Shown here piece after piece: positions 58,325 to 64,000 of a stretch of DNA of 64,000 nt. Origin of the DNA: Alphaproteobacteria bacterium. GTDB taxonomy: Bacteria; Pseudomonadota; Alphaproteobacteria; Puniceispirillales; Marisalimonadaceae. The DNA lies in NCBI GenBank assembly GCA_004213885.1, contig SGYL01000008.1:1-64000 (forward strand). Reading direction: 5' to 3'. Positions within the stretch are counted from its first letter, which is position 1; each line of letters begins with the position of its first letter. The translations under genes and the position numbers were made by a program. Under the pieces are notes generated by a model, which was given only the letters and a program-made list of their open reading frames with translations, made no database searches and was not told the DNA's origin.

Positions 58325-59596
58325 TTAATCGTTATAATATGCTCTTTCACCATGTGATCGTAAATCTAAACCTTCTATCTCCTCTTGTTCTTCAACCCTT
58401 AAGGAGGTAAAAAGAGAAGTTATTTTTAGGGCAACATAAGTAAAAATTAATGTCCAAACAACAGTTAAAATTACACCAAATAATTGAGCTAGAAATTGAG
58501 AATTTACTGACATTTCTTCTGCTAAACCGGCACCAGAAAAAGTTTTTAATGTAAGAAAAGATACCATTAGTGTACCTAAAATCCCTCCAACACCATGTAC
58601 AGCAAAAACATCTAAACTATCATCAATTTTAAGTTTAGATCTAATTAAATCGACGGAAAAATAACATATTATTCCGCCAGACAGCCCTAAAATTAAACCT
58701 CCGGGTACCCCTATAAAGCCAGAAGCTGGAGTAACTGTTGCTAAACCGGCAACCATTCCAGTTACAATGCCAACAAGAGAAGGTTTATCAAATCTAATCC
58801 ATTCAATTATCATCCAAACAATAGCTCCCATGGCGGCAGAAATATGTGTTACTAATATAGCCATCCCAGCGTTTGTACCAGCTGATAGCGCAGACCCTCC
58901 ATTAAAGCCAAACCAACCAACCCAAAGCATAGACGCACCTATCATTGTTAAAACGGGGCTATGTGGTGGATTAATAGAAGTTGGAAATTTTCTTCTACAC
59001 CCTATAACTACTGCAGTTACCAAGGCTCCAACACCTGCTGTCGCATGCACAACGAGACCACCTGCAAAATCCAAAACATTCCATTTTGATAAAATTCCTC
59101 CTCCCCATACCCAATGCGTCACAGGTGCGTACACAATTATTATCCACAAGGATAGAAAAATTATCACTGCCAAAAATTTCATTCTTTCAACAAAAGCTCC
59201 AATCATAAGAGCAGGGGTAATTATTGCAAATGTCATCTGGAAACCAATAAAAGTACTTTCTGGTATTGTTCCATTGATATCCTCATATTGAAGATTAGTT
59301 AAAAATATATTTGAAATACCACCAATCCAATCATTTCCTTCAGAAAATGCTAAAGAATAACATATTACAACCCATAATACAGATGCTAAGCATGCAATAG
59401 CGAAATGATTCATCAAAACCGAGACTGCATTCTTTGACTGAACAAGTCCAGTATAAAATAAAGCTAATCCTGGCAATGTCATTAATAAAACTAGAGCTGT
59501 AGATGTTAGTATCCATGCTGTATCACCAGAATTGACTTCAGCAAAAGCATGATTTGGAACAAAAAACAGAAAACAGAATGATAATAAAAATTTCAT
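58325..59596 (-). CDS. amtB: Ammonium transporter
   Basis: A 423-residue Amt/Rh channel for ammonium. An N-terminal signal-like segment (ends near AFAE) precedes eleven hydrophobic segments. The pore twin histidines lie in DFAGGLVVHATAGVGAL and VFAVHGVGGILGTLM. The aromatic gate region GFQMTFAIITPALMIGAF is present. GGGGAG 7 nt before ATG 59596 is a strong ribosome site. No glnK is adjacent, unlike the usual glnK-amtB pair, so control by a PII protein, if any, comes from elsewhere. Confidence 0.96.
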   Translation of the reverse strand: MKFLLSFCFLFFVPNHAFAEVNSGDTAWILTSTALVLLMTLPGLALFYTGLVQSKNAVSVLMNHFAIACLASVLWVVICYSLAFSEGNDWIGGISNIFLTNLQYEDINGTIPESTFIGFQMTFAIITPALMIGAFVERMKFLAVIIFLSLWIIIVYAPVTHWVWGGGILSKWNVLDFAGGLVVHATAGVGALVTAVVIGCRRKFPTSINPPHSPVLTMIGASMLWVGWFGFNGGSALSAGTNAGMAILVTHISAAMGAIVWMIIEWIRFDKPSLVGIVTGMVAGLATVTPASGFIGVPGGLILGLSGGIICYFSVDLIRSKLKIDDSLDVFAVHGVGGILGTLMVSFLTLKTFSGAGLAEEMSVNSQFLAQLFGVILTVVWTLIFTYVALKITSLFTSLRVEEQEEIEGLDLRSHGERAYYND

Positions 59597-60666: not shown

Positions 60667-61029
60667 ATGGCAAAACTATTATTTAACATTACTAATGGCA
60701 CAAATAATCCCACAAAAGCTTCTCTAGGATTTATGCTGGCAAGAACAGCTGTGGAAGAGGGCCACGAAGTACAAGTTTTCTTAAATGCTGATGCAGTAAG
60801 TTTGATTAGGAAACCTGTTTTAGACAGTTTAGTCGGTTTAGGAACTGGGAAACTTAGTGAACATTTTGATATTTTAGTGGATGCAAACGTGCCAATATAT
60901 GTATCTGCAATATCTTGTGAGATTAGAGGTGTTACAGAAAAAGATTTAGAAGAAACAAATTCAATTAAAGTTTTTCCTAAAACTCTCCTTAATTTATCTT
61001 TACAGTCAGATAGAACATTTGTTTACTAA
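60667..61029 (+). CDS. DsrE family protein
   Basis: A 120-residue protein of the DsrE/DsrF/YchN fold. AKLLFNITNGTNNPTKASLGFMLA at the N-terminus and EEGHEVQVFLNADAVSL near residue 31 are family features. Cys near residue 82 (SAISCEIRGVTEKDL) matches the position of the active Cys in sulfur-relay members. There are no DsrF, DsrH or TusA genes beside it, so true sulfur relay is unproven. It is the last undamaged recognisable gene on the + strand before the decayed region. Confidence 0.88.
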   Translation: MAKLLFNITNGTNNPTKASLGFMLARTAVEEGHEVQVFLNADAVSLIRKPVLDSLVGLGTGKLSEHFDILVDANVPIYVSAISCEIRGVTEKDLEETNSIKVFPKTLLNLSLQSDRTFVY

Positions 61030-61263: not shown

Positions 61264-61599
61264 CTAGTTATTTACTTCTAAAAAGTAAAAGATAAAAATA
61301 ATTAGTAAAATAATGATTAAAATTTTTAAATAGTCTTGTTTTTTTTCTTCAACCTCTACTTCATTACTTTCAGTAAATTCTTTTTTTTGCAACTCAATTA
61401 TTTTCTTTAGCTTTTTTGTTTTTTTGTAAAAATAATAATTTAAACACATAGATATAAGAAAAAATAAAGGACCTATAATTACAAATAACCAAATATTAAT
61501 TTCTTCATAAGTAATGCCAAAGAGATCGGCAACTACGTATAAAAACTTTACACACCAATCAAATGTAATATCTACCCAATATATGCCAGAATTTGCCAA
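61264..61599 (-). CDS. Small two-helix membrane protein
   Basis: A 111-residue protein with an amphipathic N-terminal part (YWVDITFDWCVKFLYVVADLF), a first membrane segment near residues 36-56 (INIWLFVIIGPLFFLISM), and a basic then acidic stretch (KKTKKLKKI; ESNEVEVEEKK). A second membrane segment is at the C-terminus. I know it only as a type of small conserved membrane protein of marine alphaproteobacteria; function is unknown. It borders the decayed region: the first direct repeat starts 36 nt upstream of its ATG. Confidence 0.65.
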   Translation of the reverse strand: MANSGIYWVDITFDWCVKFLYVVADLFGITYEEINIWLFVIIGPLFFLISMCLNYYFYKKTKKLKKIIELQKKEFTESNEVEVEEKKQDYLKILIIILLIIFIFYFLEVNN

Positions 61600-61629: not shown

Positions 61630-61639
61630 TGGCGGAGAG
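61630..61639 (-). other. Short match to a tRNA-Ser 3' end including CCA
   Basis: Read on the minus strand, CTCTCCGCCA equals the usual alphaproteobacterial tRNA-Ser acceptor 3' half plus CCA. No T-arm or other tRNA part precedes it, so it is not a gene. A 3' fragment of this kind is what remains at the distal end of an element integrated into a tRNA gene. Ten bases can match by chance. Confidence 0.35.
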
Positions 61640-61726
61640 AACCTCCTCGTTATTCCATTTTAATCATCTGATTTACTTATATTTTATAGACTAATAATTT
61701 TTCAGTCTACAATTTAGTCTACAAAT
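61635..61726. repeat. Direct repeat copy A, flanking the dead hydrolase gene
   Basis: About 92 bp with about 85 percent identity by eye to 62796-62888. Shared blocks are TCTCGTTATTC or its one-base variant, TTAATCATCTGATTT, ATTTTAT, GACTAAT, and the fully identical TTTTTCAGTCTACA-type end. The end holds AGTCTACA twice (61704-61711, 61716-61723; 12-bp period). The copy lies just past the 3' end of the hydrolase pseudogene. Confidence 0.85.
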
Positions 61727-61735
61727 AAATTTTCT

Positions 61736-62789
61736 TTAATTACTACTTTTAATTGTCTTAATAATTTCTTCATCTACTTGTTTCATTACTTCTTGATTAG
61801 CAGTTGTATTACCTTTTCTTCTTGGACAATTTTCACTAAGAAACTTAAAGGCGTCATTGTCAGTAGGGTTTAAGATTGAAGAATTTGTTGTGAATATTTT
61901 TTTATCTTTAAAATCAAAATTTAAACCACAGTTATAAGTACTTACCATATTTTGAGGCCATCTATGTTTGTGATGAGCTAATCTCCAAGGTCCTTCAGGT
62001 TTACCGAACCAATCCATTCCTTCGGCAGAACGCATCGAGTCCCACATATGACCTATACTTTTAAATTGGCTTCCTTTAAAAACCTTAATAGAAGCATTTA
62101 CACCTCTTTTTTTATTGTTTGGATAAATGTCTTACATGCTTTTTCTTCATAATTTGAATCATCTGTTCCAATAAAATGTTTATAAATTGTTTGTTTGTAT
62201 ATCTCATTATTCGTTAACTGGCATGCTCCATACAAATTAATAAACCCCTTAAAATCAATATTTGATTTTTTAAAGTTTTTAGTAAAATTTTCATCCAAAG
62301 ATAAAGTAGCTAAAAATCCTCCTAAAGAAAATCCTATAAACATGATTCATTTATATCTATTTCATTGAAATCACTTAGATGAAATAATGCTCCATAAGCA
62401 TCATGCATTCTTGAACCAGCTCCTGCTATTGCGAATTTCATGGACCATTTCTGATTATGTGGAATATCTCTAGATGCATAAGTTCTTACTCCTATGCAGG
62501 CAATTCCATTTTATGATAATTTTTCACACATTCGATTATCTCTTCCTCTTTGACCTCCTAATCCAGGAACAAGTATAGCTAATGGGAATTTTGAACTATT
62601 AGAGGCCTTTTTTGGAAGGTATAAAATTCCATGAGTAGTAATAGGTTTAACTTTTTTACCCCATAAATCTTCTCCATGGTATGAAGAAAAATCAATTCTT
62701 TTACCATCTTTATCTGAGTAAAGTTTTCCAAATGAATATGAAGTTTTAAGTATTAAAACAAAAACTAAAATTAATGAAAGCTTATGCAT
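61736..62789 (-). pseudogene. Dienelactone-hydrolase-like gene, broken
   Basis: Three pieces in different frames reconstruct an exported alpha/beta hydrolase of the dienelactone hydrolase type. The first piece (62789-62511) has a signal peptide and LAILVPGLGGQRGRDNRMCE, ended by TAA. The frame then continues (NGIACIGVRTYASRDIPHNQ) to a frameshift near 62345, where FIGFSLGGFLATL carries the nucleophile Ser. The Asp region is HFIGTDDSNYEEK. A second shift at an A7 run near 62107 restores KSIGHMWDSM, with the catalytic His, and the C-terminus. The count is one nonsense codon and two frameshifts. It lies exactly between the two direct repeats. Confidence 0.88.
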
Positions 62790-62795
62790 GGTTTA

Positions 62796-62888
62796 CAGAG
62801 ACAACCTTCTCGTTATTCAATCTTAATCATCTGATTTTCTTGTATTTTATCGACTAATAGTTTTTCAGTCTACAATTTAGTCTACAAA
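62796..62888. repeat. Direct repeat copy B, upstream of the dead hydrolase gene
   Basis: The second copy of the repeat described at 61635-61726, same orientation, 1163 bp away. It also ends with doubled AGTCTACA (62867-62874, 62879-62886). It begins 7 nt upstream of the hydrolase ATG, so a promoter for that gene would lie inside the repeat. The copies differ at scattered bases, so the duplication is not recent. Confidence 0.85.
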
Positions 62889-63110
62889 TTATATTAAAGA
62901 TTACTGAATTATTGGCACTAAAAGTTTTTTTTTTAATTAAACTGCACAATTACTCTATCTTTATCACCTTGTAGTTCATTTGTTCACACTACCAAGTATA
63001 ATTTTATTTGTGAAGTATTTGGATGTTTATTAAAAACGTTCCTTAAAGGACATTTAGACGATATGTTAAATATAAAATTTTGTTTGTGCAGAAGATTAGG
63101 TGCTTTAAAA
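62889..63110. other. Stretch without a clear gene
   Basis: No gene is supported. A + strand frame is open from 62937 to TAG 63126-63128 (63 codons). It reads protein-like in its second half (EVFGCLLKTFLKGHLDDML) but has no start signal near its beginning. It could be the tail of a lost gene. Confidence 0.3.
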
Positions 63111-64000
63111 TTAATTAAAATATTTTAGCACTTTACCACCAGACGATAAAAATTCTTTTTTCTCGTTTACATTAATACGAAAAACACGTTGAACATTTGG
63201 GTAACCATCTAATTGTAAATTTTTTTTGAAGTAATCACAGTTTGTCAACTCCAGTTCATTACACTTTCCTGCAGTTCCAACTTTTGCAAAATAAATTTCT
63301 ATATCTTTTGGGTTTTTTGTTTTATTTAAACCAATTCGCTATAAACCAAACTTAAATGAAATTGTATCCGCACCAAATGAGGTTTTTCCACGATACCTAA
63401 TAATTTTTTTATCATCTATTCAAGCATCATAAGCACCTTTGTCTTGATTAGACCATATTGCTCTGCTAACAAAATTAACCCATCTATTAGTAAATTTTTT
63501 TATAGGCCCAATAATTATATTTACATCTATTTTATCACAGAATGAATTTTCTCCATCTCCATCTTTACCAATAACACAATCATTTTTATCAAAATTATGT
63601 TTGATTTTTAAAATGCTGCCTTTTCCTTCATCTCTTATCGCAAGGTTTAATAAAGGACCAAACTGTTGATTGTTTCTTATCTCTTTAAGGTCAAACAAAG
63701 CTGTTTGGTCTATGGAGACAGTATCTTCAGGGAGCCAAAAAACAATACGTGTCCATATCTCTTTATCAAATTTTTGAGTATATTGTTTTTGTTCACCATA
63801 TTCAAAACGTTGAGCATATCCAGTTACTCCGTTTCTAACCCAATCATCTTTTGCACCCTTCATGTTCATGCCTAATTTAAATTTCGCAGAATACAAACCT
63901 TGATGTTCAATCATTTTAAAAGCTTCATTATGGGAAACGTTTCTTTCATCAAACTTATAACCAGATTTTGCATCACCAACCATAATTGAACTAGTATCTT
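63111..64000 (-). pseudogene. Polysaccharide-lyase-like gene, two nonsense codons, continues past window
   Basis: The frame resembles heparin-lyase-I-like polysaccharide lyases, with a beta-jelly-roll pattern: RFEYGEQKQYTQKFDKEIWT, IVFWLPEDTVSIDQTALFDL, RWVNFVSRAIWSNQDKGAYDA, then a Trp position read as TGA (63420-63422). The same frame continues IDDKKIIRYRGKTSFGAD to a TAG at 63339-63341 and then to a normal-looking end at TAA 63111-63113. No frameshift is seen. The frame is open upstream of the first Met (63983) to the window edge, so the N-terminus lies outside. Substrate class is uncertain. Confidence 0.8.

Follow-up and report, generated by a model that had tools for sequence, protein, structure and literature searches.

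A broken hydrolase gene is probably one swappable cassette at the edge of a tRNA-Ser island of the kind that repeats divide in most of the SAR116 family

Bacteria of the SAR116 group are widespread in surface seawater, and it is an open question how ocean bacteria with small genomes exchange genes one by one. In integron arrays, small gene cassettes each carry a recombination site at one end. The closest precedents of the locus described here are tandemly accreted islands and CIMEs. In Dehalococcoides, tandem islands lie downstream of a single RNA gene, ssrA, and direct repeats of the 3' end of this gene form their boundaries; many of the islands lack an integration module and have been suggested to be cis-mobilizable (PMC3146451). 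CIMEs have lost their integration genes but are still bounded by attachment sites and accumulate in tandem, and the accretion of ICEs and IMEs has been reviewed (PMC5704250). Additive islands with repeated tRNA 3' ends and 1 to 63 genes are found at tRNA-Lys in the small-genome aquatic Methylopumilus, and the same paper describes tycheposons as tRNA-bounded cargo islands of 4-200 kb with a tyrosine recombinase in marine bacteria, the recombinase of the Methylophilaceae tycheposon being of the XerD type (PMC10872708).

The window, meaning the whole 64-kb stretch of DNA that was analysed (C15:1-64000; C, G and L denote our contigs, genomes and loci), comes from a genome of 1.4 Mb that is 84% complete. 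It contains two direct repeats of 92 bp at 61635-61726 and 62798-62889, which are identical at 84 of 92 positions (91%) with a spacing of 1163, while the next best placement of the 92-mer in the window gives 45 identities of 92, and the other strand gives 50. The 20-mer AGTCTACAATTTAGTCTACA occurs exactly twice, against an expectation of 0.01 computed with up to 3 mismatches. The repeat pair around the decayed hydrolase gene is real and far beyond chance. As the original prediction had described from this sequence, the repeats are imperfect and hug the gene closely; measured exactly, the right copy starts 8 nt before its ATG (62789, minus strand) and the left copy ends 9 nt after its stop (61736). 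AGTCTACA is indeed present twice in each copy with a start-to-start spacing of 12, but the proposal that these are paired recombinase sites needs to be refined, because the same pair adjoins an integrase gene in relatives and is therefore best read as a pair of arm-type sites and not as the core. At the opposite end, TGGCGGAGAG (61630-61639) resembles, when reverse-complemented, the 3' end of tRNA-Ser, and the conserved unit is thus about 95-96 bp long (61630-61725) rather than 92 bp. The features are collected in Table 1.

Table 1. Features at the island edge, in window coordinates
Feature	Position	Strand	Remarks
AmtB-like flank gene	58325-59596		With the DsrE-like gene, boundary marker in G012
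DsrE-like flank gene	60667-61029	+	With the AmtB-like gene, marks the same boundary in G012
Small flank gene (MANSGIYW...)	61264-61599	-	Past the last repeat here, also in G012 and G003
Distal att-type repeat	61630-61725	-	In tRNA direction TTTGTAGACTAAATTGTAGACTG...GAGGAGGTTCTCTCCGCCA; final island repeat ahead of the flanking genes
Core CTCTCCGCCA	61630-61639	-	Identical to the tRNA-Ser(GGA) 3' end on contig C4 of the same genome
Paired arm-type motif TGTAGACTAAATTGTAGACT	61704-61723	-	Near match directly before the integrase gene in relatives
Single-gene cassette, decayed hydrolase	61726-62792	-	86% DNA identity to the G023 cassette
Broken serine-hydrolase-like gene, FSH1/DLH-like	61736-62789	-	ORFs 61736-62047, 62098-62343, 62511-62789
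Internal att-type repeat, degenerate core GTCTCTGTAA	62793-62888	-	
Paired arm-type motif of the internal repeat	62867-62886	-	
First gene of the following unit, on the tRNA side	63420-63998	-	Polysaccharide-lyase match weak, under the curated cut-off; continues beyond the window end

The hydrolase gene was correctly recognised as broken: three ORFs of 92, 81 and 103 aa, one of which gives the FSH1 match, stand in place of the single open frame of a relative from another genus (G023), and these two are the only carriers among 37 family genomes. The copy in G023 lies on a contig with tRNA-Ser(GCT), that is, at a different tRNA-Ser locus. The match between the two extends from 2 bp outside the cassette start to 6 bp short of the cassette end, so that homology stops within 2-6 bp of the cassette edges. 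Its content is one decayed hydrolase gene; like a CIME, it is free of integration or transfer genes, including an integrase, and no phage genes were seen in it, nor was a transposase seen beside the hydrolase gene. The broken hydrolase is one swappable cassette at the edge of a tRNA-Ser island.

The position of this edge follows from comparison with G012, in which one contig carries lepA, tRNA-Ser(GGA) with the integrase, the array, and then the small gene and the DsrE-like and AmtB-like genes. Because in the window's own genome lepA and tRNA-Ser(GGA) are on contig C4 and the other flank is on C15, the ends of C4 and C15 most likely bound one island across an assembly gap, and synteny places the window at the tRNA-distal edge of this tRNA-Ser(GGA) island. 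Two more copies of the repeat, flanking a quinone-oxidoreductase-like gene, were found in this genome at the start of C4. Homologs of the small flank gene occur inside other islands (L094, 2117-2332; L099, 14063-14254), so this gene, too, may be cargo, and the real boundary of the chromosome may be situated more to the left.

Searching the repeat in its own genome and in relatives, as had been suggested, showed that it is by no means confined to this site. Copies were found in 36 of 61 related genomes in a first survey (33 of 37 within the family) and in 48 of 121 genomes in an order-wide survey, namely in 45 of the 52 surveyed genomes belonging to the same SAR116 family and as three weak matches in a second family. 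Pattern matches in named genomes fell in the SAR116 cluster, with a few labelled only Alphaproteobacteria or Pseudomonadota. The copies form same-direction arrays with different genes between them, and they are not coding; the ends of a duplicated gene were rejected as their origin, since the same block stands between many unrelated genes. Together with the integrase found in relatives, these results support the original prediction of a tandem-insertion trace left by a site-specific element that carries single genes. The repeat had no match in phage records or plasmid records, and the arm pattern and the integrase were absent from viral contigs; carriage by a phage or plasmid, or as a prophage or phage satellite, was rejected because nothing was found in the viral, phage and plasmid collections. 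By title, we recognised no paper in the open literature on such arrays in SAR116.

In the tRNA direction, TTGTAGACTAAATTGTAGACTG opens the conserved block and GAGGAGGTTC[TC]CTCCGCCA closes it, and conservation across 76 copies drops at both repeat edges. The tRNA-Ser 3' ends read ...CTCTCCGCCA (GGA) and ...CCCTCCGCCA (GCT), and one or the other forms the core end of many repeats, many internal copies being altered. The distal repeat of the window ends with CTCTCCGCCA and thus matches the 3' end of tRNA-Ser(GGA), with about 10 nt in common only. In having the tRNA 3' end repeated directly at the far island boundary and, in relatives, a tyrosine integrase adjoining tRNA-Ser, the locus is like tRNA-targeted tyrosine-integrase islands. 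One attachment arm with a core is the best reading of the repeat, and the core is probably the tRNA-Ser-3'-like end opposite the AGTCTACA pair. The base after GGTT in the core showed no consistent agreement with the tRNA isoacceptor, and its use to sort GGA-derived from GCT-derived repeats was rejected as inconsistent by eye. A divergent repeat end (TGTGGYAGATG..CCCTCCGCCA) at L110 831, L133 2255 and L137 3405 may be a second arm type with the same core. A conserved non-coding block that adjoins genes and contains a weak inverted repeat (TGTAGACT...AGTCTATA) could also be a structured RNA, a terminator or a regulatory element spread by transposition, in which case its place in tRNA-Ser islands would be incidental. 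We consider this very improbable, as there was no Rfam match up to E = 1, only one of the 11 pairs of the consensus structure had a two-sided compensatory change, and the DNA-fold z-scores of the two window copies ranged from -1.94 to -0.02; the fixed orientation to tRNA-Ser, the tRNA-end core and the motif common to the integrase arm also speak against it.

A profile search of the fetched loci gave 122 matches, with one locus overlapping the window. On contigs with tRNA-Ser(GGA) or tRNA-Ser(GCT), 42 of 42 copies on 14 contigs by our tally have one orientation relative to the tRNA, and a lone copy near tRNA-Ser(TGA) in L131 has the opposite orientation to the other arrays. Downstream of tRNA-Ser(TGA), in L131 9625-10880 and L143 9755-9844, there is a different paired motif, TTGTGGGACAAATTGTGGGACAG. 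The 50 units between neighbouring copies measure 450 to 7821 bp (median about 2 kb) and hold one to a few cargo genes, mostly one to three. When only the 48 units shorter than 6.5 kb are considered, just one gene of 95 or more codons is present in 20 of them; 81 cargo genes point with the tRNA and 31 against it. Examples of cargo are an EgtB/EgtD-like fusion, an epoxide hydrolase, an acyl-CoA ligase, a transporter and a nitronate monooxygenase-like gene. A ydhR-like gene of 101-102 aa recurs in many examined arrays at varying positions (L089 6588-6893, L088 16972-17277, L090 6787-7095). Some repeat copies are truncated or decayed. In most of the SAR116 family, the repeats split hypervariable tRNA-Ser islands into small swappable cassettes. 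Same-direction units of mostly one to three genes with a common site of ~95 bp at one end call to mind an integron or an integron-less attC array (CALIN), to which we nevertheless give almost no credence: a search of 10 family genomes gave no integron integrase (TIGR02249) that passed the curated cut-off, and the integrase that accompanies the repeats is P4/CP4-like and has an arm-binding domain. The site itself is similar to the 3' end of a tRNA and, in the two window copies, lacks the unusual single-stranded DNA folding of an attC-like site. Integrase and site type thus differ from those of integron arrays, and the cargo genes point both ways.

The tyrosine recombinase that was to be looked for beyond the right edge is present in relatives, on that side, beside tRNA-Ser and with a matching arm motif, but no integrase of this P4/CP4-like type was found in the window's own genome, where C4 keeps left-arm sequence after tRNA-Ser(GGA) without an integrase. 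In nearly all loci of relatives that hold both, the integrase gene starts about 143 bp after tRNA-Ser. It has the Pfam domains Arm-DNA-bind_3, Phage_int_M and Phage_integrase, matches solved domains of phage and CP4-like integrases, and is 64-98% identical to the query in most tRNA-adjacent loci and 44% identical in one. Just before the integrase gene, the tRNA-integrase stretch of most such loci contains TTGTAGACCGAGTTGTAGACT, in which the AGTCTACA pair recurs, and from this shared arm motif, the one observation that ties enzyme and site together, we infer that the P4/CP4-like integrase recombines these repeats. An AlpA-like gene adjoins the integrase in L087. The integrase-side arm is rare at the left ends of units, apart from cases like L110, in which a complete integrase element lies between two repeats; the window unit has repeats on both sides.

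We consider it probable, with good confidence, that the repeats are attachment-site halves of integrative elements at tRNA-Ser 3' ends, which left same-direction cassette arrays behind. Each repeat would consist of an arm of about 80 bp, which contains paired TGTAGACT and other conserved sequence, and of a terminal core imitating the 3' end of the tRNA. The likely enzyme would be the P4/CP4-like tyrosine integrase, whose gene lies 143 bp behind the tRNA in relatives and whose own arm has the same paired motif. If elements inserted in tandem at the core again and again and the integrase end was lost, a same-direction array would result in which each unit ends with arm plus core. Units could then be gained, lost and exchanged at the repeats, through the integrase in cis or in trans or through homologous recombination of one copy with another. 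The window would represent the tRNA-distal end of such a tRNA-Ser(GGA) island and contain a single-gene cassette in decay. Shown by the sequences themselves are the repeat family, the orientation of its copies, its resemblance to the tRNA 3' end and the shared arm motif. The cassettes would move without a left arm of their own, and may do so today. Points against this reading are the window's genome without such an integrase, the scarcity of integrase-side arms at the left ends of units, the core base that does not track the isoacceptor, and the breakpoints away from the core and homologies ending inside units that are described below. A system convergent with integrons, in which the P4/CP4-like integrase moves single-gene cassettes with one arm and a tRNA-mimic core in trans between tRNA-Ser loci and strains throughout the family, is a more far-reaching proposal that we regard as rather unlikely.

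The acyl-CoA-ligase cassette of the tRNA-Ser(GCT) island of G005 recurs with 95% identity in G003, at a distal tRNA-Ser(GGA) boundary matching that of the window, with its right end 4 bp (+4) from the core, and a 1272-bp transporter cassette of G021 (326 aa), together with one repeat, separates two cassettes that directly adjoin in G023 and G036. The cassette boundaries, the occurrence across loci and genera and this one present/absent cassette are likewise shown by sequence. Over all cassette comparisons, which are not independent, 53 right ends of homology fell near the core versus 8.6 expected if uniform, and 19 left ends fell at the cassette start versus 5.1 expected; 102 right and 114 left ends lay inside units. 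Since many homologies end inside units or just before a repeat, gene movement is not all repeat-bounded. If the integrase acted alone, pairs with a shared upstream cassette should diverge at the core, and those with a shared downstream cassette should converge there. The average over pairs shows the switch at about positions 84-86; pair by pair, some break at 84-90 after an identical or nearly identical flank and arm (G009/G005 and G036/G032 at 85, G028/G029 at 90), others in the first 25 positions, at the outer edge or the TGTAGACT pair, and others between. The many breakpoints at positions 0-25 or mid-repeat instead of at the core would suit repeats that are old attachment scars, with present shuffling being homologous recombination of incoming DNA anchored on them and no role for the integrase once the scars exist, as would the window's genome without an integrase and the truncated or decayed copies. 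We hold this to be a real possibility but on the whole doubtful, because junctions such as the three named pairs switch exactly at the core and the arm kept across genera suggests selection on a site, although conversion between copies could also keep the arm. Some junctions do look like ordinary homologous recombination between repeats and not like integrase strand exchange, and both processes may contribute. Given this mixed result, breakpoint mapping is not claimed as proof of integrase action; we claim the attachment-site nature of the repeats and not the balance between integrase and homologous recombination.

The SAR116 arrays differ from the described systems in several respects. The Dehalococcoides ssrA islands use a serine recombinase and a 20-bp repeat, whereas in SAR116 a tyrosine integrase would target tRNA-Ser, and a conserved 95-bp arm-plus-core stands at most boundaries of units that go down to one gene (PMC3146451). 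CIMEs keep attL and attR, whereas most SAR116 units have only an arm-plus-core on one side, and on the other side the core that precedes them, in longer arrays of smaller units (PMC5704250). In Methylopumilus the repeat is reported to be the last 20 nt of the tRNA only, with no conserved arm described in the accessible part of that paper, while the SAR116 arm is conserved (PMC10872708). The loci of relatives share with tycheposons a tRNA at one border and a tyrosine recombinase, but by the description in that paper they differ in being sub-divided arrays with a P4/CP4-like integrase (PMC10872708). Tandem islands at RNA genes are already known, and by this comparison the SAR116 arrays would stand apart through an arm that is conserved at most boundaries, through their small units and through their distribution over a family. 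A conserved site at the edge of single-gene units family-wide would allow cassette gain, loss and exchange to be counted directly in single-cell genomes, and would put to the test the idea that integron-like arrays can be built by an ordinary tRNA integrase.

Other paired arm-like motifs, TACCCACA pairs and GGCCCCACA pairs, lie just downstream of the same tRNA genes (tRNA-Ser(GGA) in L102, L124 and L127; tRNA-Ser(GCT) in L094 and L126), which suggests further integrase types using the same targets. Inside the array of L103 (5965-6283), a short tRNA-Ser(GGA)-like 3' fragment, preceded by TGTACCCA-type motifs, is followed by the integrase-side arm and an integrase fragment.
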